Of a stretch of 64,000 nt of DNA, positions 6,839 to 39,900 are shown in pieces. Below the pieces are notes generated by a model. That model was not told where the DNA came from. It worked only from the letters and a program-made list of their open reading frames with translations, and did not search any database. Position 1 is the first letter of the stretch. Each line of letters begins with the position of its first letter. A program made the translations under genes and the position numbers. Origin of the DNA: Ochromonas danica (lineage: Eukaryota > Sar > Chrysophyceae > Chromulinales > Chromulinaceae); the NCBI GenBank assembly GCA_015146655.1, contig VKHL01000018.1:212063-276062 (forward strand), read 5' to 3'.

Positions 6839-6972
6839 TCAAATCATCAATGCTGCTTTCATCTCTCTCAATATCTTTGACGCTATACTTCGACGCTGTT
6901 TGATCAGTTTGCGCTGCTCTGCTGAGAGAAGCTTATCGGGTAACGTTTGCAAGAATGTCTGTACATGCACAC

Positions 6973-7032
<60 letters not shown>

Positions 7033-9546
7033 CACAACATAAACAGCCCAGAGGTAAACAATTGCACACCACCATTCACACCATAGCCCTAGCAGCTGCT
7101 TACCTCTATGAAATAGGATACACTCCCGTGCACCTCATGGCAATCCTTGGCTGTGGAAAGGCGATCAAAGATTTGACGATAACTTTCCTCCTCGATATCA
7201 GCTTGGAAGATAGTCAAGAACAAAGTCGACAAGAAGAGAATATGGAGTTGTGTCAGTGTAGCCATGTCAATGGGGCGGATAACTGCCAGGGGCAAGGTGA
7301 AGGATACAACCAGATGACCCACCAACTGACCCAGATTGAGTATGTATTGGTGAGTGTATTGCTTCTCTTCGTCCAAGAGCTTGAACACATCCCACAGGGC
7401 GTATTGCAGTGACATGCGATATTGGCGATTGGCCTCGCATAGCATCTTGATGAGCTCAGTGTAGAAGGAATTGTAGGCTGGCTCGTTGCCACAGCACTCC
7501 AGCAACACTCGCACTACCTCGCGATCCTCTTTTGCTGCCATGGACTGTTCAATAGTCACCATTCGCTCAAAGGCATCGTGGACATCTCTTGCTAAGAGCA
7601 GCTGCTTGAGAATGAGTTTGCGAGTGGGTGTGTGCAGGTGCAGCTTGGCTGAGAGCTTCGAGACTGCCTTGTCTGACTTGCTGCGCTCGGCTTCTTCTTT
7701 TGTTTTGGCAGCTGGATTGGCAGTGTTTTCAACTGCACCACTCGCGACAGAAGTATCATCAGCATTGTTGTTATTGTTGTTGTTGTTATTGAAGAACGCC
7801 CCCGTCCTCCACCATCGCCCTCTCTTCTCCACTTGAAGGAGATCAATCATTCCTACACGCAGGGGAGGAGTATTGGATAACTGCTTACTGTAGACAGTCT
7901 TGACAGTGGAGAGATACTTGCGGTGGTTCTTGATGCTCTCGTTGAAGCCCACCATGATCTTCCGCACCTTGCCTTGCTTCAAATCAGTCAACAACTCGAG
8001 CATAAAGACGAGGCGGCTCTTGCTGCCACCTTCTTCTTCTACTCCTCTTTGCTGCTCCTGATGCATCTTCATAGTTTTTTGCAAGGTCTGTGCAACGAGG
8101 AGCATGTGGTTGGGATCGTCATTGCGTAACGTGGTTCCTGCATGGTAGAGGATGAGCTCAATCAGCTCCATACGGTAGACCAGATCCACTTTGCTGAAGA
8201 GGCCGTCAGCACTGTCCGAGGAGCTGACCAAGGCGAGCAGCAGGTCCATGACGAGAGTGTGGTGCAGAACCTTGAAGTTGTAGAGGTAGACAATGATGAG
8301 CAAGCAGTTGTGTGGGATCTTGTAGGTGGCACTGTCCTCTTCTCCTCGACCTCCACTGCTACTACTACCAGCGGTCATGCTTGTGTAGGTCTCAATCGCC
8401 TCGGCCAGCTTGGCAAAGGTCTTCTCGATGATAGTCGCCCCGACATCCGTGCCTTGGATGAGATGCAGTGCTGACACAACAGTCATTTGCAAGGGAATGA
8501 GCCCAGTCATCACACTGTGAGGAAGGAGACTTGCTTGGAAGAGGCGCTGGCTGAGCACCTCGAGGCAGTGATAAGTGGAATACTCTCGAAAGAGCGCGAC
8601 CATCTCCTTCACGATGAAGTCACGACTGCTCTCCGATAGCTTGTTCATCAAGCCTGTCATGCGATGCTTGAGCAAAGCATCACCTTCTCCCAGCTGTGCG
8701 GCCAGGCGCTTGGAAGGAGGGACATACTTTGCAGTGGAAGCCGCTGAGGCGCTGGCCGGGTCGATGATGCGGCCGTAAATATCCTCGCCTTGCACTGGGC
8801 GATAGGTGTGTAGGGCCTCCTCCTGCTCCTGCTCTTGCTCACCCTCACTGTTTACTTCTTCACTATCCTCTTCGTCTTGTTCCTCTTCGTCCTCATCTTC
8901 TTCATCTCCTCCCTGCTCCTCCTCAGCACTACTGCCCTTGCTCTGCTCTTCTCCCTCCTCCTCCACTTCTTCTAACCCCCCCTCCTCCTCCCCCTCCTCC
9001 CCCACGTCCACCTCTCCATCTCCTTCCTTAGCAGCTAAAGATGGTTTCTGGGTCTCCACAGCGGTTACGAGATCATCCAGTTCCATGAGGAAGTCTCCGA
9101 AGTTCCCGTCAATTCCCTGACACAAACACCGCAGCAGGTTAGCACTGGATACTCTGACAGCAACACTTCGGCTCCACCATCTCCCACTACTAGCACTAGT
9201 AGCAGAGGTGAGAGAAGAGCCAAGACACCTAGACACTCACCTCGAACTCCTCGTACTCCTTGTTCAGCTTCTTGGCACAATCTCTGCGAGCTGATTCTAG
9301 AACACAACACAAGTCTATGATAAAACCTTCGTTGGGAACATGAGAAGATGGTAACGGTCGCTTACTTTTGCCAATGCCAAGCAGTTTCTCGAGGCGGCGG
9401 ATTTCTCGATCCTCGGCTTCGATGAGAGGATCCACAGGAACATTCTTTTTGGTAGCCTTCTTAGCCAATGAGGGCGGCCCTTTAGCTAGACGAGGCTTGC
9501 TTTGCTTTGTTGGTTTAGCTGGAGCACTGCGCAATTTCGTTCTCAT
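6839..9546 (-). CDS. NOM1: NOM1/Sgd1-type nucleolar MIF4G-domain protein
   Basis: Four exons: 9546-9366, 9296-9241, 9116-7104, 6958-6839; phases close to 789 aa. NOM1/Sgd1 acts in the nucleolus in 18S rRNA maturation and recruits an eIF4A-type helicase. Evidence: a Lys-rich N-terminus, the family motif IRRLEKLLGIGK, a long Glu-rich acidic segment, KYVPPSKR before a MIF4G domain (LKHRMTGLMNKLSESSRDFI onward), then a C-terminal MA3-like helical region (PTRKLILKQLLLARDVHDAF). A run of nine Asn is encoded by an AAC/AAT repeat. The last intron (7103-6959) is almost filled by a (TG)n tract on the sense strand ending close to the acceptor. The gene shares a 135-bp divergent promoter with the gene at 9682. 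Confidence 0.9.
6969..7037. repeat. (CA)n microsatellite in last intron of NOM1
   Basis: Nearly uninterrupted CA dinucleotides. On the transcribed sense strand this is (TG)n, lying directly upstream of the 3' splice site at 6959. Confidence 0.95.
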
Positions 9547-12410: not shown

Positions 12411-15166
12411 ATGAAAGGGAAGTTGACAAGCACGATCCTATCCCTATGCCTGCTTCTCAGATTCGCTTCTTCGTCAATTTATCTTGAAGTCTCAAACCTT
12501 CTGAAGTCTCGCGCACAGTAAGTGACCTCTGTGACGATCTCTGTGTCAACTGCTCACTCACACTCTAACTGTGCAGTACCTTCCACCCCTCTGCTGACCA
12601 CTTCCACACTGCTGTACAAGACTATGAGAGTCATGTAAGGAGTAGCTCTGTTCACTCCGCGTCGGTCGTTCATCCCTTCGTCGTGCAGCTGGCCCCCACC
12701 TGCGACCACCTCTGCCATGAGGCCGTGGCGCAGGAGGTCGGGGGACAACAAGGCAGATATGAAATCCTTTCTGAAAACTACGCTATCGTGTCCTCTAGTC
12801 GGCTGTCGCTTGAGACTTTCTCCTCTCAGCATCCCGAGATGGTGAGAGACTACATGGTCATGCTCCCGGAGATGAAAGTGCACCGTGACATTCGCCACTT
12901 TGCCACTGACACTGCCAATGTGGCATGTGGGAAGAAACAAATAAGTGGCATTCGCTTGGCTTTCCACTCCCTCGCTTCTGAGGATGCGCACCGGGTCATT
13001 GCCTTCCTGCGTGCCTTCGAGCATCGCCATAAAGGCAAAGTGCGCCTTGGCCAGATTGACGATCCCATTCCAGAAGGAGAGACACTTTACTTCTCTCTCG
13101 ATGTCGATAATTGTGGGTTGATGGCTGAGTTGGCAATGGAGATCGCTCGCAGGCCAGAGGTCGTCTATATCGAGCACAAGAAGGCGATGGTGACCTTCAA
13201 TCGATGGAGCAAGGGCCTCTGCGATGTGGGAAACACGCTCTACACACCATTGAATAATAACAACTTCACTGGGTATGGTGAAGTTGTGGGCATTGCAGAC
13301 ACAGGGCTGGACATGTTCAACTGCTATCTGTATGACCCCGACCACAACGTCTCCTACAGCACCTCCACGGACAAGACCAAGATCTCTGTCAATACTGCGC
13401 ATCGCAAAGTCATACAGTACGTTGCTTATGCTGACAATAAGGAGAATGCTGAGGGCCATGGTACCCATGTGTCGGGGTCTGTGGCAGGGCTGGCCTATGA
13501 GAACTATGGAGACTACCAGCGATTCAATGGCATGTCTTTCAATGCCAAGATCGCCTTCTTCGATATTGGCAAGAATAACACTTCTTACCGCACTGTGAGT
13601 ACACCAGATAACATCAACACTCACATGCTACAAGTCATGTACGCAGCTGGTGCCAGGTATGCACAACAGCTACATAAATACAATACAGTCCTACAATACA
13701 GTGATGCTGACTCTTGCTTTGCATGTGTTGGGAATAGGATATTCTCTAATTCTTGGGGAAGCGAAGGCGACAATTCGTATGACACGCAAGCTCAGCAGGT
13801 GGACCAGTTCATGTTTGACTATCCCGATGCTCTGGTTCTCTTTGCTGCGGGCAACAACGGCACCACGCCTTCCGCCACCAATGAGGTGAAGTAGTTGTGC
13901 ACTTTGATTCGACGGTCTCTTAACGATGATGTTGATCAATAGGTGAGCTCTCCATCCACGGCGAAGAACTGCCTCACAGTTGGCGCGGCCAGCAATGATC
14001 ACGAGTCTTGGCAGGCCGTGACATCCGGGACTGTGTCTGATGCCGCTGGTATCGACGGGGTTGCGTACTTCTCCTCGCCAGGGCCCACCGCGGATAATCG
14101 CCTCAAGCCAGACGTTCTCGCCCCAGGCTTCTATGTTTTCTCTGCCAAGGGCACTGGAACGGCTACCGAGTATTTCTGTGCGATCGACGGGAAGTCTGGT
14201 ACCTCCATGGCCACGCCCACGGCCGCCGGCTTCGCCCTGAAGATCAGACAATATTTTATGGAAGGCTATTATCCAAGCGGAGTGCAGAATGCCTCGGCAG
14301 CGTTCATTCCGTCAGGCGCGTTGATAAAGGCAGTGATGATAGCCTCTGCGCAGCCCATGAAGTACTTCCTCTACTCCGCCTCCAACTATGCCACCTTGTC
14401 TGGCTACCCTTCCATCTATCAGGGCTATGGGAGGATTGAAATGTCTGCGGTACTGCAGTTTGGAAGCCAAGCGACGATGAATCCTCTCAATCTCTTCGTG
14501 GTGGGCTCCAAGAACAGCTCCTATCCCCACTACACTCAGTTCCTGGGCACCGGAGGGGTAAGACTCTACACTGTCACTACTTCGGGTGCTTCAACAGTGA
14601 GGGTTGTGTTGTGCTACACGGATCGAAGTGGAAGCGCTGCATCTGACACCACGGGCATGAAGAACAGACTCACTCTCTCTGTCACAGGCAATGACGGCTC
14701 CAGCTACACGCCGTACCGATATGGTGTCTATCCCTATTCCAATGTGCAAGTCATCGACATCACTTCGTCGACCAGCACTGTCTACACGATCAAAATAGTA
14801 GCCACCTCTCTTTCCGCCTCCCCGCAGGCCTTTTCTTTGGTGGCGGTTAGCAACTCTACCACCTATCTGGCCGATGGAGAGTCCAATGCCGTTGATCGAT
14901 CTTATCATTATGGTTCAGATTCTCTATCGCATTCTGCAACTATATATGTTATCGTTTTCACGATCGTCCTAGCTGCAATGATTGTCTTTGTCTGTTATGT
15001 GCGTGGTATTTCCCAAGCCCGCAATGCTACTCTTCTCAATCCAGCCAATTATGCTAATGAGTCCACCTACAGCTTCGACGTACCTGATGAAGATGAAGGT
15101 CAAAAACCCACCCTCTTCAATCGCGTCTTTGGCGGAGGTAGAAAACCAGGTGTTGTGAGGTCATAG
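12411..15166 (+). CDS. membrane-anchored subtilisin-like serine protease (S8)
   Basis: Four exons: 12411-12517, 12577-13656, 13738-13885, 13943-15166; phases close to 852 aa. A signal peptide (MKGKLTSTILSLCLLL...) leads into a pro-region, then the S8 catalytic domain with Asp about 277 (VGIADTGLD), His about 330 (GHGTHVSG), oxyanion Asn (AAGNNGT) and Ser about 533 (GTSMATP). A beta-rich C-terminal region follows, then one transmembrane helix (IYVIVFTIVLAAMIVFVCYV) and a cytoplasmic tail of about 60 residues. The intron at 13657-13737 lacks a stop and would insert 27 residues before the conserved FSNSWGSEG if retained; removing it restores the canonical spacing. It is probably a secretory-pathway or cell-surface processing protease. 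Confidence 0.93.
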
Positions 15167-15527
15167 TGGGTGTCAGTGCGTTTTCTTTCGGAGTTAATGC
15201 CCCGAGATGCTCTTCTCTGTTTGGTGAGTAGTATTTGTACTTGATAGGTAAAAGTCTTGTATAGGAGTGCAATGATGGTATAATGCACATTGTTTTTCTT
15301 CCCTTAGTCACACGTAATGTCAAAAATAACGAAATACTGATAGCTTGCACTGTATTCCATGGAATTCCATGGCAATACTTACGGCCACAGCGGAAATTCT
15401 CTGCTCTGCCGTGCTGCTGGTGCGCTTCCTTCTTGCAACCTTGGACCAGTACAAAGCACAACACATTCAACACCCCTTTCATTTCCACATATCGTCCACA
15501 GTCAAGTCATTCAATACTCTGGAAGAT
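15167..15527. other. intergenic, subtilase to globin
   Basis: No separate gene. It contains the subtilase 3' end and probably the globin 5' leader. An upstream ATG at about 15369 in frame with the globin would add a hydrophobic extension. Confidence 0.45.
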
Positions 15528-16444: not shown

Positions 16445-17736
16445 ACCTCTTCCCCTCTCCTCCCTCCAATATCAAGCAACTTATTGTGGTTGAACCTGAG
16501 TTATTATTTGATTTTATTCTATGTGGGAGTGTTTAGCTTTCGTTTTGCTTGAAGAATTTGATCCGCTTTTGAATCATGCGACTGCATTATATTATCTTCC
16601 TCTCGCAAGAAGTGCTGGCCAGGAGACTTCTCTTTATTTGGTATCATCTTTCTCATATCGCATTCCTTGCTGGTGGAAGCTCCATGTACCAAGTGGATGC
16701 TTCTATTACCAGGGAAATCTTGTCGTTCTGGCAAAGTCTGCTCGTTGTGCTGCTTGATGATGCGCTCGCTGTTAGAATTCGGCTCGCTTGTTCGCTTGAT
16801 TCATTGATTGTTTTATTGTCGCGGTGGCAAACCAATGCATCAAATGAAACTATCGTAAGATAGTTTGTTTTGAAGTTTGACTAATTGGTTTGATCTGGTA
16901 GTTTAGTGTTATTATGCATCATCAGGTTATTTTGTTGGATTCGCTTGAATGGATGGAAATACACTGTCGAAACATGTACAGTATACAGTATAAACAACAC
17001 GACAGTTTAGTCCTTTCACATTATCTGACATCTGATGCATAAGTTACAATATGATGCATCTATAGCGTTGGGATGTATCAATAACATTGTGATGTGTAAA
17101 TTGCTTCTTTCATACATGTTGGTGGAACTGTTGGGAAGTTGTATTCTCAGTGTCTTTGTCATTTCCTTGCTTCTTCCTCTGTGTAGATGAGGATTTAATT
17201 TAAGAGTATTTTTGTGTGAAGGGCAAATCCATAAGAGCCATTACCTCCAGCATCATTAGCTAATGTGAGAGTAGTATTTGTGGACCAGTAGACTACCCGC
17301 AGACAACACGGTACAACAACAACAAAACTAAGCTAGACAAGCAGTCTAGGTACAAGCCGTCTACAAGTAACCAGTACCACCACTGTTACCACTGACAACA
17401 GGTCAGAAAGGTAACAATGGAGAAGAGAAAGACGGTGGAGGATGCCATATGATTTAACTCAATTAATTTCAACGACGAAACCGCCCAAAATGCGAAATCA
17501 AAACATCGAAATATCGAAATATCGAACTCTCGAAAAGAAGCAACACTTCGTGAACCCCCTTGCCATGTTCCGTTGCCCAATAGATCGAGTTTAAAGTCCC
17601 AAAAGAAGAGTTGAGCTCGGAATATGGAAGTCTTCAGAATTTGAAGTCAGAATATGGAAATGCTGGAATTGGTGGAATCCACTCTCCCGGGTCTGCATCT
17701 CTTGCCCCATCCACAACCAAATCCAACACCAAGTTG
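16445..17736. other. 1.3-kb stretch without a supported gene
   Basis: AT-rich compared with its neighbours. It contains a perfect 8-bp stem hairpin (AAACTATC/GATAGTTT, about 16848-16867), four occurrences of an ATGCATC/GATGCAT motif between 16830 and 17060, and TAGTCTAG-type motifs at 17280-17360. A 95-codon frame at 16576 has no family features and I do not call it. The proximal part of the CREG-like promoter lies at its right end. Confidence 0.5.
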
Positions 17737-18490
17737 ATGATGATCCTCTCCATTGCCACCTTGACTTTGCTATTGCTCGCAGTGACTGCCGTCTTTGGTC
17801 AAGACGACAACCGCAAGCCTCCCTTTTGGAAGAAAGCGGAGACTGCTCGCTGGCTGGCTCACGAGAACTTGTGGGGCACCTTCTCCACCTCCTCTTTGCA
17901 CCTCAACAAGCAAGCCTGGGGTCAGCCCAAGTCCTTCGTGGACGGATCGAATTCCAACAGCACTGGCGTGCTCTACTTCTACGACAGCGACATGGACGTG
18001 TCTGTTCAGGTGAGATCGCCTGCATGTGTCTAACGGCTAAACCTCGCTCACAGTGCTCTGGGCTCCACAGGATGCCAACGCTGACTCCAGAGTTGCCTTC
18101 AGCCTGTCCATGGCTCAGCAGAACCTCTGCCCTGTGGACAAGCTGGACCCTGAGGATCCGCGCTGCGCTCGCGTCGTCTTCTCCGGCAACTTCGTCGAAG
18201 TGACTGACCCTGCCGAGCTTTCCGTAAGCCCAACTCACTCACTCTCGCACTGGACTGATATTCATGCTTGGGTTGTTGATGATTAGTTCGCTAAGCAGGC
18301 TCTCTTCGAGAGACATCCCGCGATGGAGACCTGGCCAACCGACCACGACTGGAAGGTGCACACCATCACCTTGAGCGAGATCTGGCTCATCGACATCTAT
18401 GGCGGAGCCGGAACTGTGGACATCAGCGAGTACTATGCCGTCGATGTGACTGCTCTGCGTGCCGCGAAGACTCTCCCTGCCAAGATCTAA
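17737..18490 (+). CDS. CREG-like secreted glycoprotein (FMN-binding split-barrel fold)
   Basis: Three exons: 17737-18009, 18071-18223, 18287-18490; phases close to 209 aa. The first in-frame ATG gives a clear signal peptide (MMILSIATLTLLLLAVTAVFG). The mature region follows CREG: ARWLAHENLWGTFSTSS, a DG...STGVLYFYDSDMD segment, then the cysteine-containing signature DPEDPRCARVVFSG and a C-terminal block with WLIDIYGGAGTVDISEYYAV. CREG proteins have a flavin-reductase-like barrel that usually does not bind FMN and live in the endo-lysosomal/secretory system. The frame extends upstream of the ATG for 42 codons without another ATG, so an additional 5' exon cannot be excluded. Confidence 0.85.
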
Positions 18491-18734
18491 GCTGTAGCTG
18501 CTGCTGCAGTGTCAAAAGCCAATCCATGACTTTGTCGCCGAGTGCGACCAGTCTGTCTGCTTAACAATAATCTGAAGCTGTTTGCTTCATCGTCTTAGTT
18601 TTCATTTGAAGGCGTGAGTATGGTGCGGCTAAAGCCATAACATCGTCACACTACAGTATGATAACTCCCCACAGCTGCGCTCGAGCTGTGCAGGACAAAT
18701 TGATAATTACACGACACAGCACAGTGAAAGTCGA

Positions 18735-21437
18735 TTAGCGTCCGACACGCATGAGTTCGGCATAATATCTATCGGGCAGATGGTCGGGCACCATAGTGGA
18801 GGAGACAGTGATCTGTGTGAAGAAGTCCAGGTCTCGCTCGAACAAGTTGTAGACAAAGCGACTTCGAAGTCTCTCGCGCACTGCTCAAACAAGATCAAAC
18901 AAACCATCATGACCATTATCCGTTATCTGCATTGCAAACAAAGTGTCTAAGAGGAAGAGTCTCCCCTACCTTTGGCAGTGCGAGCGATGTGAACGATTCG
19001 CCCCGGCAGGAACAGTTCGTGCTCCAACTTGTCCAGTCGAGCTTGCAGAGTATCCTACCAATCCAATCCAATTCATTCATTTAGCACAACAACGACAGAG
19101 GGGAAGTGGTAGAAGGCAAGCATACCTTGAACTGCTGCACCTGCTTCTTGAAGTCGGACTCGGGCTCCTGACCGACCGGGTACATCAACTCCTCGCTCGA
19201 GACATCATGGAACAGAGCCTTCATGATATAAACCTTGTTTATCCGCGCTCTAGAGATGGCATCCAAAACCTGATTGCGGAGGTTACAAAGGGATCGAAAG
19301 CTGAGCCTGCTGACCACGTCGTTGTCCAGCACGAGGGAAGTGACGAAACTCTTCACATCAACACAGCTTTGGCGATCTAGCACTGATGCAGGCGTACCAT
19401 ACGCCATGCATTGCAAGTTAGGATGTTCATGTCTCAACATCATCGCCAGCAGAATCGCCGCCCCTGCGCCGAGACTGTGTCCCACCACCGTGAGACGGTA
19501 ATGTCCGAACTTAGAAAGGTCCTCTGTCAGAGGTGTGTTCATGTTTGGTTGAGAATGATGACCACTGGGATCATGGTGTGAAGTAGTGGAATAGATCTTG
19601 CGAAGAATATCCAGGCGATCTAACTCTGTTCGAATGCGATCGGCTGCGCGCACCATGCCGCTGTGTGCCCATCTGTTTTTACCGTCAAATCCCCACTTCT
19701 CACCCATCGCCGACAACTGCACACAGTGTAATATCTCGGTCAACAGAGACAACAACAAGCTGTCAAGCAAAGAGCAGGGGGGGGGTAACTCACCTCACAG
19801 GGCTCGAAAGTGACATCCGTGATACAGTCTTCCAGAGACAAAGTGCCTCGAATACTGACCACCACCCACTGCCTGGCATGGTCCAGGAATATTCCAAAAG
19901 GCTTCATGTAGGTATCATTGACAAAGGAGGCATGGAGCAAACTGCTCTCTCCCGCGTCAATCAGATTGGTGAAGATGTGCATGCCCACGTAATGCAATCC
20001 GCAGCAGTTGTCGCCCACGACTTCAGGCTTGTAGGGGACATCGCCACCACGGCCTTTGCCAGGGAGAAAGCTGGTCAGACAGGTACGACCTCCTCTACAA
20101 CACCTTCCGCGAAAGGAGCAGCAGAGGCGGCACAGTCCAGTGCATGGATGAACATAGAGAGCCATGAGATGAGTGTACATGGCCAGGGCATAGATGCTTC
20201 CACGAAACCAAGCTGATTCATCATCAACATTACGGTTTGTGATAGCTTCATCCACCTGCTTTGATCCCATTTCCAGGTCTGAAGTCATGCGTTTATGGTA
20301 GTATTTCGTTTGAGAGGTTTGCAGGCCTTTGGTCGAGTCTGTGAGACTGTCCTGACTCGTTGAAGACTTCGAAATAAGAGGACTGGATTGAACGGGATGG
20401 TGTTTGCGATATTGTCTTTGCTCAAGACGAACTAAAACAAATCCTGCCACCACATCAGACGCCACCACGTCGAGGAATCCTTGATGGTGGAAGAATTGCA
20501 TCAACGCTTTGGCCACCTCGTCGAACCCCTGGACAAGGCAATGGCAATCAATGCACCTATCAGAGAAGCATGGCATTCAAATGTAAGCAGCGGTATGACT
20601 CACATCGTTGATTTGGCTGCCGCCAAAGAGGTTGCAGGACAAGATCTGCACGCTGCGAGTCAATTGCTGGCAGCGATTGGCCCAAGCGACCCACGCCTCC
20701 ATCTCATCTTGCATGACCTGATCACACCACAGAAATTAGCCCATCCTCTCATATCAGATCAGATCAGATCAAGAAGATTGACGCAGGTTACGGTACCTCT
20801 TCCGGCGAGCTGTCGAGGGAGGAACTGGAGCGCAAGAGACACGATCCGCAGCAGAAATAGAGAATGCTGTCGAACAGCTGCGAGGCAGCGACGATGGCAA
20901 TGAAGATCTGCCTCAGCCCTTGTGAGTCGAAGGTGTCATTGCACGGCATGCCCGAGTGCGCGGCGATGGCGATGATGCCGAAGATCGAGCAGGCCGTCTG
21001 CATGAAGATGAGCGCGATGCGAGTGGTCAACAGAGAGCCGAGCTGCTTCCGCTCTGACATGGCCGTGATCGACCCTATCCGCATCCAACACAAACCAAGA
21101 CAAACCAACACATAGCGCACACAGATGGTGAGGTTATGTTGACAGACTAATGGACTGAGAGAGAAAGGTTAGAGTCACTCTGCACACCTTGTAAAGAGAC
21201 GTATATAATAAGAATATCACAAAGAATATCTGCCACGAAAACAATGATAGAGATGAGCAAATAGGCCTCAAGCAGCCATCCTCGGTCACAGTCGGACAAA
21301 AAGGAATACGACGTGCCGTAGACGGCGGCGATCAGACCGGTCCACAGAATGCGACTGATCAAGGAGAATAGCGCTGGACAAGATAGCTCATCTCCTGAAA
21401 CATACCAATAGCGATTACAATATCGTAGGTGAGGCAT
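18735..21437 (-). CDS. sn-1-specific diacylglycerol lipase (DAGL-type, four TM helices plus lipase class 3)
   Basis: Seven exons: 21437-21188, 21074-20797, 20717-20604, 20528-19794, 19734-19126, 19054-18970, 18880-18735; phases close to 738 aa. The N-terminal part has hydrophobic helices (LFSLISRILWTGLIAAVYG, LLISIIVFVADILCDILII, RIALIFMQTACSIFGIIAIAA, IFIAIVAASQLFDSILYFC), a DAGL hallmark. The lipase domain follows: VVVSIRGTLSLEDCITD, VGHSLGAGAAILLAMML with nucleophile Ser about 546, LDNDVVSRLS with the catalytic Asp, and a C-terminal MVPDHLPDRYY with the likely His about 724. DAGLs hydrolyse diacylglycerol at sn-1 to give 2-monoacylglycerol in membranes. A Ser/Thr-rich insert with Lys and Gln lies before the catalytic domain. 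Confidence 0.9.
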
Positions 21438-21681: not shown

Positions 21682-24600
21682 ATGAGCCATTTCAAGTTCA
21701 AAAGTGCTTTGGTGAATGAAGTAGTGCATGACCTCATGGTGATGTCTGTCTACTCCACGCTATCCAAAGCCGCGCAGCAGGAAAGAGTGAAAGAAGCGCT
21801 TCTTCAACAGCGCTTGGCCTTCCTCGCGGCTTTCACTCAGCAGCAGCGCCACGCCACCCAGCAGGAGGTCACAGACTACTTGAAGCTCATGGGAAAAGAC
21901 CCTTCCTCAGGTGAGATGACGTGTTAGCGCTTCGCTCCTCTCGCCTCTCACCCCCGCTGGCTGGCTGGCTGTGCTTTAGTGACCGCGAAGGACTTGACGG
22001 TCTTGAGGACGATCTTCCACTACGTCAAGCACCCCTCCGTGCTGCTGTCTATAGGCGGAGATGACCGCTTAACGGTGAACCCGAACAATCACAATCTCAA
22101 CAAGTACTTGAGCTCCACCTCCGCCCGTGACGACATCTTGCGCAGAGGGTCCTGCACTTGCTCTACCGTGGATCCTGAGGGAGCGGAGCTGGCAGAGAAA
22201 GTCTACCACTCATTCTTTGCCGAGGTGGCGAAGGCTGTTGACGAGGAGAAGGCCGCCGACGGCGTGGAGGAAGATTTCTATTTCCTCCTCAGCCAAGCCT
22301 GCCAAAGTCTCATTCAGAGGCTGCGCTCTGTCTTCCATCTCTCTTCTGTGGCTCCTGACAGTGACATTGTGCTGTTCCCTTCTGGCTCGGACGCTGAGTT
22401 CCTGCCTTTGCTCTGTGGCGCATTGCTGTCAGCCAAGCGCATCGCGGCGGTCGATCAGCAGGCCATTGACTCCATCGACAACAGCAAAGTCAAGGTCTAC
22501 AATGTCATCACAGCTGCTGGAGAGGTGGGCTCGGGTACTCCCAATGCTGCAGCTGGACAGCATTTCAGTGCCTTCAGCCCCAATTCCAAGTCTGGATTGA
22601 AAGCAGGCCAAGAAATCGACGGATTCCTCTCTTCGAGAGTGGAGTGCATCTCCTACCCTCCTCGCAATAGTGATGGCTGTGCTTCTTTTCAGGAAGAGGC
22701 GATGATGGAGACGATTGTAGCGAAGCTGGAAAGCAATCCAAACGCTGTCGTCGTTTTGCATGCCGTGGTGGGATCGAAAACTGGTTTGATCTATCCTGCT
22801 CAAGAAGTGTTGAATGCTCTCACGGAGCGCTATCCAGAGAGAGTTCAAGTGGTAATTGATGCTTGCCAGTTGCGCTGTCGACTGGATCTGGTGGGTCGCT
22901 ATCTGTCCAAGGGGTACATCTGCTTGGTGACTGCGTCCAAGTTCTTCACTGGCCCGCCATTCAGTGGCGCAGTTCTTCTTCCTTCTCACTGTGGTGCTTT
23001 GTTGGAAAGCCATGCTGATCGCAACGCTGCGGGCCAAAAGTCTTGTCTGCTGCCCGAAGGCTTGGCTGACTACCTCACGCCCTGCGAAGTCAGCGACGGA
23101 TTGCCTGCTTTCAAAGCCTTTCTAGCGTCCATTCATCGACAAAACTATAATCCTCCAGCCTCTGGAGTTGCTGGTAGTGCAGGTAGTCTTGGCTATCCTC
23201 ATCGCTGGGGAAATCTTGGTCTCTACCTGCGATGGTCCGTGGGGTTAGACCGACTGGAACGCTACGCTGCCCTTCCGTCTGCTCTGGTGGCAGACTTCAC
23301 ACATCAATACATCTCCTTTGTGAAGCGTGAGATCAAGCAGCTCTACAGCCCTTTCCTCACAGTCATGGACGATGCCTATGTCTTCTACCAGGAGAACCTG
23401 GCCGAGGTCAACAGCATCGTCTCCATCCTGCCGCGCACTGTCGACAACAAGAAGGAGGACGGCAAGGGTGAGAAAGAGAGTGTGCTCTACTTGCGCGACC
23501 TAACCGCTGCGGAAATCAAGGCGTTCCATCAGTACTTGACTCTTCACTATGTCCAGCGCGGCGGGGAGGGCAACGAGAGGACTGTGTTGATCTTCAATCA
23601 ATGCAAAGCGCTGCTTGGCCAACCGGTCAAGATCAAAGACAACGGGTCGTCTATTGTTCGCATTGCTCTGGGGGCGGATATGGTTCTCCGCTGCTTGGAA
23701 GGCATCAACTCACCTCATGAGGCGACCTTGGCTGACCACCAATTGGCTGTGAAAGAAGCCTTCCTGTCCTTTGGCCGCCAAGGCAACGCGCTGGACTATT
23801 TGGACAATGTCGATCCTGCTGACACTGCCTTTCTCATGGCTCATTATGACGAGTCTCCTGCGGTCTCTGCTCTGCGCGAACAATACATCGCCAAGATTCA
23901 TACCCTGCTGGCGGAAGACGAGTTGGTTTTGGCGAAAATGGCTGTTTTGGCTAGAGACTTCAGCTCCTTCGACGCCAAGGCCTTTCTCTACACTGACTCC
24001 TTGGCGCTACTGCCATCAGCGGCTCCAGTGGGCAGCATCGTCAATGAGAAGCCGCTGGTGCCCAGGTACGATCTGCAGAAGTCTCGTTTGCAAGTCGATC
24101 GACTGGAGCGCACGAATCAAGACGAGCAGTCGTCTTTCCATCTCTCCCAGCTGACCCTCATCATGAAGACTTTGCAGCATGAGGGCAGACTGTCCAACAC
24201 GACCATGCTATACGATCTCAACGCTATTTACAATGCAGTGACTCGTCTCCATAAATCCTTTGCGAGCAGTTTACTCTCCGAGAAATGGATTGATTCCCAT
24301 CTGCACTGCTTTGCCGTCAAGTCTTGTCCTATCTCATTCATCTTGTCTTATCTCATCCATGAGATGAAAATGGGCTGCGAATGTGCTTCCATCAACGAAG
24401 TAAAGCATTCCTTGTCGCTGGGTTGTCCTGCTCATCAAGTGATTTATGATTCTCCTTGCAAGAGCAACACAGATCTGCTCTTCGCGCTTGTCAAAGGCGT
24501 CACCATCAACTGCAACTCCTACCACGAAGTGTATGCGATCAACAAGTTGTTGTTGGACTTGCAAAGTCGTGGAGTTGAAAGTCGCTCTCGCATTGGCCTG

Positions 24601-25875
24601 AGAGTCAATCCGCTCGTTGGCAGCGGAAGCATCACACAGCTCTCCACCGCCACGCTGACCTCGAAATTCGGCGTGCCCATCTTCTCCATGAAGACTTTGA
24701 AGCGTTTGGAGGGTTTGCTTGCCAAGCACCACGTAACGGACCCTCTCTTACTGCCAAAAGACGAGGTGGTGGCCATGATGCTGGAAGACGAAGAAGTGCA
24801 TCGCCTGCTCGCCGCCTTCAAGACCTTCGCCTTCCTTCGCGGTGTAATGTCTCACGTGGGCTCGCAGGGCATGCCTGTCTCGATCATGACGCTAGGTGTC
24901 CAGCGCATTGTCCATCTTGCCGATCTCATCGACTTGGTTTGTGCTTCTGCCATTGAGTTGCCGATGGTGGATTGGCACGCTGTGATTCACATGGAACACG
25001 TCCAGAACAAACCCTTTTCGCCCGGGACAACAGACGGTGTGAGTAAAGTACTTGATCATCAGCGTATTGACTTCATTGATATTGGTGGCGGACTGCCTGC
25101 CAACTATGCCTCCAATGCGATCAAGCCTTCCTTTGAAGACTACGCCCAGGCGATGGCTTTGCATCTCACACCTTTGCGACGTGATGACCTGCCCGACAAT
25201 ACCATCAAAAGGGATTATACTATTTTGCCCAAGAAGCGCGTGCTGATAACAGAGTTCGGCAAGTCAGTCATCACGAAGACAGGTCTCATCGTGAGCAAAG
25301 TGGAAGACGTGCTGACCCACCAGCTGCCCAGGGGACAAAGTCTGACCGCTGTTGTGCATGCAGGCGCTGATTTGCTTCTTCGCACGGCCTATGTCAATGA
25401 TAAGTTCGCTCATCGATTTTCTTTTCTTGCGGCAGGAACATTCCAGCCTGTGGCCATTGCAAGCAGTCCAAGAGACAGCGCCACGACGGAAGATGAAGAA
25501 GAAGTCGGCGATGGCAGCGAGTCCTTGCTGTTGTCGACCGTAGGGTTATCCTTGTACACTTCCATTCCAACCCCTTACACTGTGCGGCGACCACCTTGCA
25601 CTGCGGATATTGTTGGCCCTCTTTGCTTCTCAGGAGATGTCCTGGCAGAACAGGTTACGACTCCCACCGTGGAGCGTGGAGACTACCTGGTCTTGCATGA
25701 CACTGGCGCCAATACCTTGTCTCTCTTCAGTAAACACTGCTCACGTCTTTCTCCACGCGTCATCGTCTGCAGGGGATTGCTTGCAGCTTGGGACAGTCAA
25801 GAACACAAAGTCTTGCTGCTGGAAGAAGTGCGTGAAGAGGAATCGTTGCAGGCTTTGCTATCCTTTTGGGCATAG
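21682..25875 (+). CDS. fusion of fold-type-I PLP enzyme (class V aminotransferase-like) and fold-type-III PLP decarboxylase (DAPDC/ODC-like)
   Basis: Two exons (21682-21910, 21980-25875), 1374 aa; the second exon is a single 3.9-kb open frame. Residues about 80-600 look like a class V aminotransferase/cysteine-desulfurase fold: FPSGSDAEF, VVVLHAVVGSKTGLIYP, VVIDACQLRCRLDL and ASKFFTGPPFSG with the likely PLP Lys about 397. Residues about 790-1370 look like a group IV decarboxylase: HCFAVKSCP with PLP Lys about 857, SHVGSQGM, FIDIGGGLP, LITEFGKS, AGADLLLRTAYVN and PLCFSGDVLAE with catalytic-type Cys about 1292. The usual Tyr of the C-terminal GAY motif is replaced (DTGANTLSLFS). Both Schiff-base lysines are present. 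The substrates are unknown; no targeting peptide is obvious. Gene continuity is well supported by the single long exon. Confidence 0.85.
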
Positions 25876-30977: not shown

Positions 30978-33900
30978 TTACGACGAAGACGAGCTGTCAG
31001 AATGCTGCCAAGGGAAGACATCGGACGACTCCTCACTCGACTGCTCAGGGTACATCCCCTCCACCACATTTACACCACTCTTCCCACCACCACCACCACC
31101 ACCACCACCACCACCACCACCACCACCACCACCACCACCACCACCACCACCACCACCACCACNNNNNNNNNNACCACCACCACCACCACCACCACCACCA
31201 CCACCACCACCACCACCACCACCACCACCACCACCACCACCACCACCACTCTCTGAATCTGAGTGACAGCTACCGCTGGAGCTTGATATGGAAATCGAAT
31301 CCGCCAGCCATGATTGGTCAGATGAAAAGCAACTCTCCATCTCCTTGCCATCATCTGCTTCGCTGCCTTTTCCTCTCTTACACGAGGAAGAGGAAGGCAA
31401 ACTATTGGCTTCCCTTCCAGCGGGACGATGGATCAACAGATCTTCATCCTCCTCATCCTCGTGATCAACAGCAACACCATCGATCAAGGGAGGAAGAATG
31501 GGGACCACATCAGAAGAAGGTGATGGAGGAGCGAGAAGACCAGGAAGGGCTGGGAGAGGTGTGATGGATGTTAGTCTTGAAGACCTGAGGCTCTTCAACC
31601 TTCTCCAAGTCTTCCACAACGAGAACGCTGCCAGCACAGCCACGGTGACACAAACTACGAGCAAGTAATAAGGCTTGCTGACCAGCGCATAAAAGGCCAA
31701 GGTCAGACCCGCTAACAAGATCGGCTCCGCCACTCGCAAGATCACACGCTGCACAGACAAGGGCACCTCCGCCGCCATTTCCTTCAATGCAGACAGCAGT
31801 GACAGCGAAGTGAAGAACGAGAGCAGGCAAGCATAAGAAGAGGAAGAAGATCGTCCTCTTCCTTGCTGGCCTTCTTGACCAGAGGCTTGTCCTGCTTCTG
31901 CCTCTTTTATTCCCAGCTTTTTCTGCCATCTCCTCCTCACCTCTCCCGGCAAATGGTTGCTATAGGACTGCACGATCCAGCTCTCCATCAAATCAGGAAA
32001 GGCATTGGCCAGCTGATAGGAAACGAACAGATAGGCTGCGGCATTCAAGCAAAGCGATTCATTCTCATAGTAGGAAGCATCGCGCAGATGAGCAAGAGTC
32101 TCCTGGAGTTGAGCGTAGACTGTGGACACTTCCTTCGTCACCAGAGAAGGTAAAAAGCAATGCGTCCATATGCACTCCAGGGTCTCAAAGAGCAAGACAT
32201 CCAATGCCAACTGAGCTGCCCAGGCCTGCACGAAGTCAATCTGCCAATCCAGACCTTTGCTGTACCCCTTCAAGAGGCTATAATAGAAGCAGAAAACATT
32301 TACACCCAGGATGATCATAGTTATGCCTATCTTCACGAACCATGACACCCTCTCGATTCGCTCGAAGTCTTGTTCGCTCTTTAGAGCAAAGATGCGAGCT
32401 GCTGTGGTCGTTCTGCCTAACAGATCCTGAACAAAGCACTGCAAGATCTCAAACCCTTTCTCTGCATCTCCCACCTCATTGTTACTTGACGCAGCTCGGA
32501 GATATTCCACAGTCCGCGCAGTTGCTTCTTGTACGCTTCGGACTTCTTCTTTCAGCTCTTGCTTCACAGAAATGACTTTTTCCACATGTCCACAGAGAAC
32601 AGCAGGAAAGCATAGCGAGTTCCCACTCTTGCGCACCTCCAAGAAGTAATCGGTGGTCGGATCAATCCCCCATTGCTGATCGAAGATGTTGCGGGTAGCG
32701 CCATCTAACAGTCTTCTCTGGAAGAAGATCTCTAGTTGCAAAGCCTGGAAGCTCTTGTGTGCTCTCATGGCTAACTCTTCGCTGTCATCTGCATCTGCTT
32801 CATCCTTTATTGCACGCACAGTTGATACTACGGCTCTCTCCGCGGGTATTCTCTTCTCAATGTCCTCAGCATCTCCACCATCCGCATCAACATAACCCCC
32901 AACTAGCACATGTTCTTGCAAAAGCCTGTTCACAGTCAACTTGCGCTGGGATTCCCTGCGTAGCAGCAATGGCCGGCTCTCAACGAAGTAAGATCGCCCT
33001 TCAGAGAGCGCCTGCTCTTGAGCTGACAGCACTTGAGATGAGATGTAGCGAAGAGGAATTGAATCATCTTGAGACTGTCGCATCTGCTTCAATAGCCACC
33101 CAGGTATCGCCAAGTTCGACAGCTTTTTCTGCCACGGCTTCCTTCCTTCTGTCATTTTACCCACTTCGATAAATTGTCCTTTGGGCGAACCCGATGAAGC
33201 CACACCAATAGGTATCGAAGGTGCTGAAGTTGATGCAGATGAAGGGGCAATGTTGAACAGCCTCTTGTCCTCAACGCTTTCAACCTTTGCCCTAACAGGG
33301 AAAGGAGATGGCGATGATGAAGGTGAAGGCAATCTGATGGGAGCGCCTAGCTTAGATATCAAATCCTCCAAAGGTGCAGAGACCAAGCACGTTGCCAGGG
33401 AGATGATGATGGCCACGTACAAAGAAGCGGTCAAAGAATAATTGGGATTCGCATAGCTGCACTCATATTGGCCCGTGTTGCCGTCCACACTCCAACTGCA
33501 ATAAGAATGCTTGCTGTCCAGCATGTATCGTCTGCTCAGGCAACTGTCCATCGTGGTGTGATAGACACAGGAGCCATCATCGTCAGGGTAGTTTAGGTCA
33601 TAAAGCAATGCCAGAAGGAAGAGAGTGAAGCTTTGCATGGTGACCAACTGGACAACAGAAAGAAAGGGTTTCTTCCCATCTCGAAGGTGCACAAAGAAGC
33701 TGATGTAAGCATGGTGGGCGAGAAGTTCTCGTTGCAGCAACATCAACAAAGGCTTGGATTCGTAGACCGCAGGGAATATCGAAGAGATGTAAGTTGCCAA
33801 CACCTCACGAGCTTCTTCTGTGCGGTTCTTCTTGCGATGGTCACACTCTCCATCTGCTTCTTGCAGGTGGTGGATTGCACTTCGCTTACCTTTCAATACT

Positions 33901-36900
33901 TCATCGCGCTTATTCTTTCCTTTTAAGCCAGCTCCAACTTTCTTTTTTCTTGTAGAAGACCCTTCTCTTCGATCCCAAGTCAAAAACACAACCAACACTA
34001 AGGCAGCACCCCATAGTGATCCATACAGAGCCAGGATGACGTACGTCTTGCCCAAAGAAGATAAGTTGGTGAGAGCCGAAGCAGCCTGGAAAGTTTGTGT
34101 CAGGTCAGAGGACATGTACTTCATCACCAAACCTGCAGCCACTCCTCCGCTGCTTCCAGAACCGATCACACATCGACACGTGATCCTGTTACCCTCAGTG
34201 GAAGAGCTGGAGTTAGATACAGCATTACTGACGGCATAGCATAAGGTGGACGATGAGCTGCCAGTGGAGGAACTCAAAGCAGCACATACAGTTGAGAGAA
34301 CAGGACAATGACCTTTATAGAAACCTTCCTTTCCTGTGCACTGCACAGACATCACCTGGCCAGAGTCTGGACAAGTATAGGTTCTTGTGGAAAGATTTCC
34401 AGCTGGGCAATAGATCGTATAGTTTAATCCAGCGCTGCCGCCAGGGCCGCCTGTGGAAGTCAAGGTGATGTCAACGTATTGCACGTTTTTCACTTTGACA
34501 TTCATAACATTCGAAGCAAGCGTAACGCTACCGTTTTTATTCGAGGCAGCAAACACAGACTGATCAAATATGGCCACGGAGACGTAGACCATTCCTGTGC
34601 TGCTGTTGGAAGTCTTCACCGCAAGGGAAGGCAACGTCGATTCTCCCAAACTTGCCATTAGTGCTTCCGCGGGGGTCAAGGCAACAGGAACAGACAACAC
34701 GCTACCATCACTGTTATCATATACAACAGTGGATAATCGAAAGGTGTCGTAGACCGTAGAGTAGTTCTGCTTCTCTTGGATCAACAGATCTTGGAAGGAA
34801 TAAATAGTAGTTGTGAGATTCTTCACGATATTGCTGTTGTTCCTGGACTGAGAGACTGATGAGATTGCTGAATCCACTGAACCCAGTATACTTGCCACTG
34901 TCGACGACAAAGGCTGGCCTGAACTACTCGCAGAGGAAGCATCCTTGATGATGGTAGAAGCCAAGGCCGCAACTTGCCCAGCAGACGTCGCCGAAACATC
35001 GTACTGATCCCGCACAATCGCAGACAGAGAGGATGCAGCACTGGCCAGTGAACTCTTGTCTGCATCTACATGATCCAACACACTCGACAAGGCTGTCAAC
35101 AGCTGTGACCGCAAAGCTTGCTCGGCTGCAAGCTCTGCGCTTGTCATGCCACAACTCGATCCTCCATAGCCAGCATTGCAAACACAGACCGCTTCACAAG
35201 TCGTAGCTAGAATAGAACAAGTGGAGACTAATTGTGCTGTGCTTGTCGAAATCGTATCACAATATCCGTGACCCGAGCAATTCGCACTGCTACAACTTTT
35301 GCTTTTCGTTTGACACAACCCTACCGAAGCGTTACAATATTGCCAGGAAGCACATGCACTCTCACTCCCAGCACTGACTAACGAGCAGGATTTGTTCGTG
35401 TATGAGGTGTAGCTGGCAAACGAAGACGAGGCAAAACACACACTATTGGAATCTCCTGACACACCTGGCGCAATAAAGCCATCCACACACTCACTGCACG
35501 TATTCGCTGTGGACAAACAGCTCTTTCGATGAAGAGCCGAGCAGTTGGGAGCAGAAGAGCAATCAACTGTATTTAACAATGTCGTTGTCACCGACACCAC
35601 ATTCTGGAGCTCATCTGCTGAGAGGTTTTGCTGATGGCTCAAGCGATAGGATATGATGCTATTGATCATAGCTGAAGGAAGTGGATCTACTTTGACTGAA
35701 CCATTGATTCGATTGCTACTACATCCATACGAATCATCAGCTATCACACTTACATTCAAGGAGTAGTTGGCGCTGCTACTCCCAGGTGGCAAGATGGCGG
35801 TTGTAATAGACGATTCCGACTTGGCTTGAAGGGCCAAGAATGTCGAAGAAGAGTAGGAAAAATAACCGAATGCATACGTTAAGGGGAGATCATCGTCGAC
35901 CCACATATCTGTGTTGATCAAAAAGCTCGTGTTTAGCGTATAGCCCTGCCCAGGCTGAACCAGAACACGACCTCCAGCAGGAGGGGCATTGGTAGCGATC
36001 GAAATCGATATGCTGCTGGCTACCACATTCTCGTTTTCACCACTTCCGCCACTTATCGATATCTTTCCGTCATGCGATAATATGTCGGTTGACAACCGAC
36101 GACGATGAGAGCCACTCACAACAGACAATTGCAATCGACAAGAGAGAGAAAAAGTGTAGACAGTCCCTCCCTTCAGAGAATTAGCACCAAGATAGAGATT
36201 GACGAAGGTCTTTCGACCTGCCGGAACCTGCTTAGGATAAGCTGCATAAATCAAACGATCAAGATCTAAAGAAGGGTCATCCACCATCCAAGAAGCATTG
36301 CATCCTGTAGAAGAGAAGATGGTGCTGTATAGAGTGAGCATCCCATCCACATTCCAATAAGCAAATTTGGAGAGATACGAAGAAATCATGGAATCTCCAG
36401 AAGAGGAAGAAACCAGACTGATCAAGGGTTGATAGCTGGAAAGAATGGTCAAGGTGACTGTGAGACTGCTATTGCTTCTTGAGTAGAGATGGAGCGCATC
36501 ATAGATCGTTAAGGTGATTGCTACCGTAGAGCCCACGTACGAAGCATTGTTTGCAACCACAGATATTGCGGCTGTTGTGCAAGTGCAGCCGGAGTAGCTG
36601 CAATTCTTATCATTAATAACAGTGGACACAGGCTGCATTGTCACTCCGCAATACGCAGATGAGGAACTGGTCACAGATCGACATGTCCATTCATAGATAA
36701 GTCGAGACGATGGCAATGATGCAGCAGAAAGCAAACTAACTCGTGCATTAGGGTCATAACTACTGGAACCATTCAACACTAGTCTGCTTTCATAACGAAG
36801 ATGCTGCTCAAAAGTCGCAGGTAGAATGACAGGCACCAAGCCCAACGACTGCACTGCAACCAGAGCATGGTCAGATGAAGCTAAGCCAGTGGACATATCC

Positions 36901-39900
36901 CTCACCGCAACAAACACTTGATAGCTGCTATTAGCTGCTAAACTATAGGGTGAAAGCAAGAATTTCTTTGGATCTTTGGATTGGGACGGTATAGACAAGG
37001 CTGTCCAATCGCTACCATTGCACCTATTGCTGTTGAAAGCATCGCATTTCTCAATCCTCCAAGTGTATTGCAAAGAAGAAGTGCTTCTTTTGCCCAGACA
37101 TTGAGGAACATAGGCGCTCACAGAGACTGACAACGTCTCGTTCACATACATGCTTATAACCTCGCCATCATTTACTCCATTGATTGACACCACAGGGGGA
37201 AGAGTAGCACTACTTGTTATTGCCGTGACTTGAGATCTGAAGGAGCAAGCAAGCAGGAAGTTGCAAAAGCTGACTCCCACTCCGTAGCTACTCCCGGCAG
37301 TGAGCCATGAGCTATTCAGATTCACGAGGCTCTTCATGCTGTATTGGTGATAGAGCTCTTGTTCCATCTTGATAGTGACATTGCTAGATAAAGATGACGA
37401 TGACGACGAGTTTCCAACCTCCCAGATCGAAAAGGAAACATTCTGCCAACTTCTTCCCGCGTTGCCCTTGGTTACGCTGCCGATGGAGAAGTCCAGCTGC
37501 CAAGAGCTGCAACTACTCACCACGGACACTGTGAAGCTACCAATCGAAGGTCGAAGTGGATTTGGTGAAGCCTGTATGGCCACATTTTTGCCACCGTCAA
37601 GGACAGTAGATGAAGAGGAAGCACGAGTAACAGAGGAAGACACATTAGTAAACTGAAAATCAAGTGCTTGATAGTAACTGCTGGACAAACTCTCATTCGA
37701 CAAGGCTAGCTGAGTGCCTACCGCAACATCAGAGGAGACTGTATTGCGAATAGCCAGCAGAGATGCATTTTTCCACGAGCAATCATAGTTCGTCACTGTG
37801 CGAAAGCGAAGAACTATTCTGCAAGGAAACACCATCCCTACAGACAGCAAGAGCATGCTTGTAGGAGCGGAGAAAGAAACCAGCACCTGTGCTCCATCAC
37901 TGCTAAATGTTGCTGATTGCAATGACAATGAACGGTTGGGCGACGATTGAACAGAAGGTTGTGAAGATGGCTGGGATGTCGGGTGAGAGAAAGGTTGGGG
38001 GGAAGGCTGTGCCGATGGCTGAGAAGATGGTTGAGATGATGGTTGGGATGTTGGGTTCGATAAAGGTTGGGAAGATGGTTGCGAGGAAGGTTGTGATGAT
38101 GGCTGAGAGGATGGTCGAGAAGACGGGTGAGAGGAAGGTTCTGTGGAAGGTAGTGCAGAAGGTTGTGTTGATGGTTGTGCGGAAGGTCGTGATGATGGTT
38201 GAGAGGAAGGTTGAGAAGACGGATGAGAAAAAGGTTGGGAGGAAGAAGGCTGTGCAGATGGTTGTGTTGATGGTTGTGCGGAAGGCTGTGCCGATGGTTG
38301 TGATGATGGTTGAGAAGATGGCTGGGATGTCGGGTGAGAGAAAGGTTGGGGGGAAGGCTGTGCCGATGGCTGAGAAGATGGTTGAGATGATGGTTGGGAT
38401 GTTGGGTTCGATAAAGGTTGGGAAGATGGTTGCGAGGAAGGTTGTGATGATGGCTGAGAGGATGGTCGAGAAGACGGGTGAGAGGAAGGTTCTGTGGAAG
38501 GTAGTGCAGAAGGTTGTGTTGATGGTTGTGCGGAAGGTTGTGATGATGGTTGAGAGGAAGGTTGAGAAGACGGATGAGAGAAAGGTTGGGAGGAAGAAGG
38601 CTGTGCAGATGGTTGTGTTGATGGTTGTGCGGAAGGTTGTGATGATGGTTGAGAAGATGGCTGGGATGTTGGGTGAGAGAAAGGTTGAAAGGAAGGTTGT
38701 GCAGAAGGGTGGGAAGAAGGCTGAGAAGACGGGTGAGAGAAAGGTTGGGAGGAAGGCTGTGCGGATGGTTGTGCTGATGGCTGAGAAGACGGATGAGATG
38801 ATGGTTGAGAAGACGGGTAAGAGAAAGGTTGGGAGGAAGGCTGTGCGGATGGTTGTGCTGATGGCTGAGAAGACGGATGAGATGATGGTTGAGAAGACGG
38901 GCAAGAGAAAGGTCGGGAGGAAGGTTGCGCTGACGGTTGGGAGGAAGGTTCGGAAGGTTGTGATGAAGGTTGAGCAGATGGTCGGGACGTCGGGTGGGAT
39001 AAGGGTTGGGATGAGGGAAGAGAAGAAGGAAGGGTTGTTGGCTGCTGTGTTGGAGAATGAAAATTCTCGATGCTCTCTCCATAGACGAAGAAATCCACGC
39101 CTCCATGATTCACTAAGCCACTCAATTCGCCATAGGTCCAGCCGCTGACAAAGACCGTGGAGTTATAAACCGCTACAGCAGACGAATAGTCATCATTGGA
39201 AGAGCAGAAAGATCGAACTGAACGTAACTCTCCCTCATAATCGAGCATGAAGAGGAAGGCATCAAAACCACCAGCTGTTGGCCCTGTCAAAGACTGATTC
39301 GAGGAGAACCCAAGTAACATATGGCCTTGAGCATCAGTCGTGATGCTTGGGGACAAGTCATTTCCAGACGTCCCCAATAGTTTCGTGTATTGCTTCACCC
39401 CATCATAGCTGTATTTCACAAGGAAAACATCGCTGCCCCCTAGTTTAGGTTGTCCACCCAAGCTCCCCAAAGTGGTGCCTGTGATATAGACACTGTTATC
39501 AATTCTCACACCACTTGCCACATCATCACTTGAGCTTCCTAATAACCTAGTAAATATTCGGGTACCATTGCTCGCATACTTTTGCAAAAATATATCAGCA
39601 CCTCCGGCATTCACTTCGCCATCCAGATTCCCGTAGGTTGTCCCAACTACGTAAACATTATCTTCACTGTCTAAGGCAACACCATTATTATTGCCAGATC
39701 ATTCTGCGACCCCCCATCGAGTATGGAAAACAGTTTCGACCCATTAGCAGCAAACTTCATGATAAATACATCAAACCCACCAACATTCCTCTGACCATAC
39801 CAAGTTCCCTTTGTTCTTCCCACCACATAAATATCATCATGACTATCCGTGGCAACAGCAGTTGCGATATCATTCTGCATCGTGCCAAAGAGGACTGTGG

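Follow-up and report, generated by a model that had tools for sequence, protein, structure and literature searches.

We analyzed a 64,000-nucleotide (nt) stretch of the genome of the chrysophyte Ochromonas danica (contig VKHL01000018.1 of assembly GCA_015146655.1, positions 212,063 to 276,062), henceforth termed the window, in which a single gene on the plus strand (21682..25875) encodes two pyridoxal phosphate (PLP)-type halves. Both halves, referred to here as N half and C half, have relatives that lie side by side as separate genes in some bacteria, and the gene appears to be a fusion of such a pair. The open reading frame (ORF) list contains a frame of 1315 codons without interruption (21928-25875, +). 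From the DNA we read an ATG start at 21682 and predict a 69-nt GT-AG intron (21911..21979; donor GT at 21911, acceptor AG at 21978-21979) that preserves the phase and contains an in-frame TAG (21925-21927); by arithmetic from this gene model, the spliced product would comprise about 1374 amino acids (aa). Exon 1 (21682..21910, +) contributes 76 aa plus 1 nt and no known domain, Pfam giving two DUF matches at E 0.14, under the cut-off. Exon 2 (21980..25875, +) carries both PLP-type halves through to the stop. They consist of an N half from an unnamed, fold-type-I-like PLP family with class V-like motifs (21979..23814, +, end approximate; delimited by tblastn, contig scan, AlphaFold and hhalign) and a C half resembling fold III decarboxylases of a TEFGR/CFxGD subfamily (24211..25872, +; Pfam, tree and motif table). 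Between them lies an interdomain linker (23815..24210, +, limits approximate) with no Pfam match, which falls outside the regions that the alignments have in common. An earlier note on this DNA had described one polypeptide with two PLP-type halves, and the unbroken frame with its short upstream exon agrees with that description.

By its sequence, the C half is a member of the fold III (alanine racemase-fold) family of diaminopimelate decarboxylases (DAPDC) and ornithine decarboxylases (ODC), as the earlier note had recognized: both Pfam families, Orn_Arg_deC_N (PF02784; E 4.6e-21, 75.8 bits vs a cut-off of 23.4) and Orn_DAP_Arg_deC (PF00278; E 5.8e-9, 36.6 bits vs 23.0), are matched above their cut-offs. 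We aligned it with six bacterial partners, to which it is 32-36% identical (alignment A2, seven rows). The fold III residues are kept at the Schiff-base Lys, HxGSQ, GGG, Cys and Asp positions. K857, the Schiff-base lysine position in FAVKS (24319..24321, +), HVGSQ (24853..24867, +) and GGG (25084..25092, +) are invariant in all seven rows, and the catalytic-type Cys lies in GPLCFSGD (25624..25626, +), a position at which CES or CET is read in 13 of the 17 other bacterial rows. The earlier note had named these motifs as kept, and the two candidate Schiff-base lysines, at about 397 (K397, TASKFF) and about 857, are found where it had placed them. Its observation that the GAY tyrosine is lost holds as well: the window has Asn in GANT (25711..25713, +), opposite GAYT in each of the six partners. 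At a further position, the Lys of TEFGK (25261..25263, +) stands opposite Arg in all six.

Within this family, the C half belongs to a subfamily distinct from LysA. The NCBIfam model lysA (TIGR01048) fits it best, yet scores only 122.2 bits vs a cut-off of 297.9. We built a decarboxylase tree of 29 rows from fold III enzymes of 15 bacterial genomes and the host loci L104-L106 (a further host locus, L108, gave no row). With good tree support, the C half is placed in one clade with its six partners (SH-aLRT 93; 100 when joined by L007 and L008, actinobacterial enzymes with no relative of the N half within the stretch fetched), apart from the other fold III enzymes of the tree. The partner clade shares the motifs DSPxK, TEFGR/K and CFxGD, whereas among the 17 other bacterial rows EPGR is found in 13 and CES or CET likewise in 13. 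Forcing the window C half into a group with the host LysA-like genes was rejected (p-AU 9e-38). The C half thus resembles diaminopimelate decarboxylase LysA in its fold III family, Lys, HxGSQ, GGG and Cys, but differs from it in falling below the TIGR01048 cut-off and in having CFSGD and TEFGK in place of the CES/CET Glu and EPGR. In DAPDC, this Glu touches the substrate at its far end; since it is missing here, diaminopimelate is an unlikely substrate. The host genome also holds separate LysA-like copies, its other PF02784 places being L104, L105/L106 and L108, of which L105/L106 (G000:C68) form a nearly identical LysA-like pair separated by about 1.8 kb. A role of the C half as the only lysine or ornithine enzyme of the cell was ruled out by these loci together with the trees.

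The N half is harder to classify. It has no sequence match in Pfam, NCBIfam or the PDB. Neither the window N half nor three bacterial relatives match PF00266 (aminotransferase class V) at E 1 or better, and the three relatives match no PLP family in Pfam or NCBIfam. An N-family profile likewise gave nothing significant against the PDB (best E 0.16; a NifS-like protein at E 0.27). Relatives are nevertheless numerous: tblastn on plasmids returned 33 N-half records, all from Rhizobium, Sinorhizobium or Neorhizobium (best E 1e-28), and a genome-contig scan queried with a five-row alignment confirmed 441. The locus analyses below use the best 80 of these 441, i.e., the most window-like, and a motif alignment (A4, 50 rows) combines the window with 49 of the 80. 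The window N half shares with this family homology over most of its length and the motifs GGDxR, SGxD, DAxQxR, SKFxxGPxF, RW and a GQPV-type motif. Positions S135, D294, Q297, S320, K321 and R561 are invariant in the 50 rows, and G136 and D138 are conserved in at least 90% of them (numbering of the query, in which K321 is K397 of the full protein).

An AlphaFold model of query residues 1-639 (mean pLDDT 80.7, pTM 0.89) has strands at 129-133, 172-178, 221-226, 256-264, 289-295, 314-318 and 330-334. SGSD (22381..22392, +), presumably the phosphate-binding position, follows strand 129-133 and opens helix 138-158; D294 of DACQ (22858..22869, +) lies close to the end of strand 289-295; and K397 (22939..22941, +) comes directly after the next strand, 314-318. 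Such an order of strands and motifs is typical of fold-type-I enzymes, and in the model the N half likely fits this class. The invariant R561 (23659..23661, +) is, by analogy with fold I enzymes, what we take to be a candidate binder of the substrate carboxylate. Comparing the 49 N-family rows without the window to six cysteine desulfurases by hhalign gave a probability of 53.6% and E 1.3e-4, with SGTD, DACQ and TGSKF of the N family opposite the corresponding desulfurase stretches in the same order. The five other families compared reached only E 0.087-0.31, although two of them (group II and S1P-lyase-like decarboxylases) are themselves fold I. Cysteine desulfurases, which are class V fold I enzymes, thus share the SGxD, DxxQ, SK order with the N half but give no significant sequence match to it in Pfam, NCBIfam or PDB searches. 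Because the N half and its three bacterial relatives match no PLP family, the label "class V" has no family search behind it and derives from hhalign and the AlphaFold secondary structure. Of the earlier designation as class V aminotransferase-like, then, the weak likeness to cysteine desulfurases, sole aligners among the families compared, and the fold-I-like model stand, while "aminotransferase" finds no backing in PF00266. Taken together, sequence and model suggest that the N half would be a PLP-binding fold-type-I enzyme.

Both halves were found as adjacent genes in bacteria. At six of the 80 N-family loci, the next gene encodes a protein related to the C half (E 4e-40 to 9e-59). These coupled loci span three phyla, Actinomycetota, Pseudomonadota and Planctomycetota, and come from Phycicoccus (L014, L024), Ilumatobacter (L023), an Acidimicrobiia metagenome-assembled genome (MAG; L013), a Gammaproteobacteria MAG (L042) and Mariniblastus (L075). 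The genes are joined by a 4-nt ATGA overlap in four cases, by a 38-nt overlap in one (with an upstream TTG start; another start is possible) and across a 7-nt gap in the last. The bacterial operon pair resembles the window gene in both halves, their order and their coupling; it differs in being two genes, in having GAY and TEFGR intact and in lacking the linker and the window insertions. Because the same two families occur as coupled bacterial genes, we read the window protein as that gene pair fused rather than as the result of a missed stop. The earlier note had named as a refutation that close homologues are separate genes joined here by a missed stop; homologues are indeed separate in bacteria, but the frame here is continuous. 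In N-half trees the six coupled rows cluster together (support 92 with 50 rows, 95 with 26 rows), and the window N half is a long branch in both. All six coupled genomes contain at least one further fold III decarboxylase, LysA-like by motif in five; given these extra genes and the LysA-like twins of the host, the pair is not the sole such enzyme.

Around the fold III pair of L042 we noted sugar-transfer ATP-grasp and glycosyltransferase genes; in L023, two enolase-like/RimK ATP-grasp frames (12743-15379, 16599-19442) and an asparagine-synthase-like gene lie beside the pair. A viral origin was rejected: two viral contig scans were without any relative, and a phage collection gave six records for the C half, all weak local matches.

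Linkage to decarboxylases extends beyond the fold III pair and is frequent among the loci examined. Counting per locus, not per genus (many of the 80 are from Gluconobacter and Bradyrhizobium), and requiring the same frame or a distance within 2 kb on the same strand, we found a PLP decarboxylase linked or fused to the N-family gene in 44 of 80 loci: 31 of group II, 7 S1P-lyase-like group II relatives and 6 of fold III. The group II kind, which is unrelated to fold III, thus accounts for 38 of the 80. Farther than 2 kb out within the fetched stretches, a decarboxylase of the tested sorts occurred in one locus (L048). At eight loci (from Halovibrio, Vreelandella, Halospina, Chromohalobacter and Ectothiorhodospira), the N family and a group II decarboxylase share one frame, though L017 among them contains merely a 168-aa piece of the decarboxylase. 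These fusions (Halovibrio L009, Chromohalobacter L045 and others) resemble the window protein in uniting the N family with a PLP decarboxylase in one chain, but the decarboxylase forms their N-terminal part and is a group II enzyme. Of the 80 loci, 29 have an ATP-grasp relative, in two of them without a decarboxylase, and a histidine-phosphatase-type gene, tested against Pfam in one member, follows in 26.

Three-phylum surveys with an N-family alignment (A3), seed genomes included, recovered the family in 7 of 297 genomes (E 1e-20), 3 of 392 (1e-60) and 2 of 396 (1e-60). Among the 13 survey loci, which have short flanks, a fold III partner occurred only in L097 and L100, both from seed genomes. 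At these thresholds, the N family and its fold III partner are rare and patchy.

Several N-family neighborhoods drew our attention in their own right. In Bradyrhizobium L048 (5486-9698) and Chromohalobacter L045 (4735-5787), N-family genes adjoin what appear, read from the letters, to be flagellar hook-associated protein or flagellin genes, with ATP-grasp and group II decarboxylase genes close by or fused; these loci possibly encode a flagellin or surface modification system. L009 encodes, upstream of its decarboxylase/N-family fusion, a TPR protein (6556-8496) that contains an acylphosphatase domain and resembles the ATP-grasp cluster by blastp. On a Sinorhizobium medicae plasmid (L006, 10025-11560), an N-family gene sits directly 3' of an adenylation-domain gene, with SagB-type and phosphopantetheinyl transferase genes nearby.

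We consider it probable that the window gene is a eukaryotic fusion of a bacterial two-gene operon, in which the N half makes or modifies an amino acid and the C half decarboxylates the product. The pair would have passed from bacteria to the eukaryote. The N half would act first, by amino-group transfer, epimerisation or side-chain chemistry, and the C half would then convert its product to an amine; fusion would keep the two steps together in a 1:1 ratio. With two enzymes of neighboring bacterial genes in one chain, two pathway steps appear welded together. The ATP-grasp enzymes often found alongside in bacteria may then ligate this amine or amino acid. A broader version, which we hold only tentatively, makes the fold-I-like N family a general decarboxylase partner: bacteria would combine it with decarboxylases of fold III or group II, often with ATP-grasp genes and sometimes close to genes for surface glycans or flagella, in order to produce an amine and attach it, and the eukaryote would have adopted and fused the fold III version. 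In the 2,4-diaminobutyrate aminotransferase-decarboxylase pair, both enzymes are fold I. There, in Vibrio, Acinetobacter and Bacillus megaterium, a PLP aminotransferase ORF is adjacent or fused to a decarboxylase ORF, according to PMC3969229, which offers a precedent for the logic; the pair appears to belong to other enzyme families. The earlier proposal of sequential transfer and decarboxylation thus gains from the linkage counts and from this precedent, while the substrate and the reaction of the N half remain conjectural.

Several observations weigh against the operon-fusion reading. The N half of the window is nearest to L011, a desulfobacterial sequence (support 99), and not to the six coupled rows; L011 shows no decarboxylase on its short contig, of which only 1767 bases lie downstream. 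A group of the window N half, L011 and the six coupled rows receives support of only 50 (50 rows) or 69.8 (26 rows), and the data neither establish nor reject a grouping of the window N half with the six that leaves L011 out (p-AU 0.065). No decarboxylase and no ATP-grasp relative of the tested sorts lies near the N-family gene at 34 of the 80 loci, of which 27 belong to Acetobacteraceae as judged by title or genus. When the N-family profile is cut to the seven rows closest to the coupled loci, hhalign favors class V hardly more than one control (E 0.042 vs 0.063). Kinship of the N half to the group II or S1P-lyase-like decarboxylases, themselves fold I, was rejected for want of any hhalign signal, though both align to class V. 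Finally, the changes from GAY to GAN and from TEFGR to TEFGK occur only in the window among it and the six partners.

This double loss could mean a weakened or dead C half. Its assignment as a decarboxylase accordingly stands as to family and to Lys, HxGSQ, GGG and Cys, but is less sure as to activity. In a degenerate C half, the fold would be kept as a scaffold, regulator or PLP-binding relic and the N half alone would be catalytic; the long insertions that the partners lack and the terminal branch of 1.5 in the decarboxylase tree fit this picture. Antizyme inhibitors, non-catalytic relatives of ODC, provide a parallel. So does a decarboxylase-arginase fusion whose arginase half was judged unlikely to be active (PMC8503589). 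An unconstrained broken enzyme would, however, be expected to lose some of the Lys, HxGSQ, GGG, Cys and Asp positions, all of which are kept, and on account of the double change we retain a non-catalytic C half as an unlikely outcome. That the halves do unrelated jobs, their fusion being a chance product of inheriting a head-to-tail operon, could draw on the pairing of the window with L011, which has no partner on its contig. Against it stands the fact that, at more than half of the 80 loci, the N family has a PLP decarboxylase, from one or the other of two unrelated folds, beside it or in the same chain, the one-frame group II fusions included, and we regard it as distinctly improbable. Only rarity would speak for taking the gene as a contaminant, an artefact of assembly or two genes run together by a missed stop: we found no close relative in the bacterial, plasmid and viral collections searched, and no second copy of the fusion gene in the 31.2-Mb host genome (337 contigs), where the search scored the best candidates only and skipped other fold III genes found separately. 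A missed stop or assembly error was rejected in view of the continuous 1315-codon frame and the DNA reading of the gene model, intron included. The flanking genes are eukaryotic (an HSF-type factor, a MIF4G/MA3 protein, an ankyrin protein and a PI3/4-kinase), which leaves an artefact of any kind very improbable.

Elsewhere in the window, two plus-strand frames (12569-13894 and 13943-15166) match successive parts of the subtilase profile and are therefore probably a single gene with a short intron. On the minus strand, a 2906-aa frame (30978-39698) has a REJ domain and PT repeats, the repeat arrays keeping other frames open as well, and a 1444-aa frame (39671-44005) has SBBP beta-propeller repeats (E 2e-82). 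A 126-bp tandem repeat of 6 copies with 99% match (62058-62820) lies within an open frame and looks recently expanded. In another part of the host genome, a silicon-transporter family match exceeds its cut-off but is weak (46 bits).

Among the papers listed by literature searches, no title or abstract opening dealt with this fusion or the N family. Beyond what the earlier note had seen, the analysis adds a bacterial gene pair, a distinct decarboxylase subfamily and an unnamed fold-I-like family with partners of two unrelated folds. This family, for which we found no Pfam or NCBIfam model, is tied to decarboxylation in bacteria through those partners. The O. danica gene itself is a candidate for a bacterial operon acquired and fused in a eukaryote, and its product would allow the PLP chemistry of both folds to be assayed in one protein.

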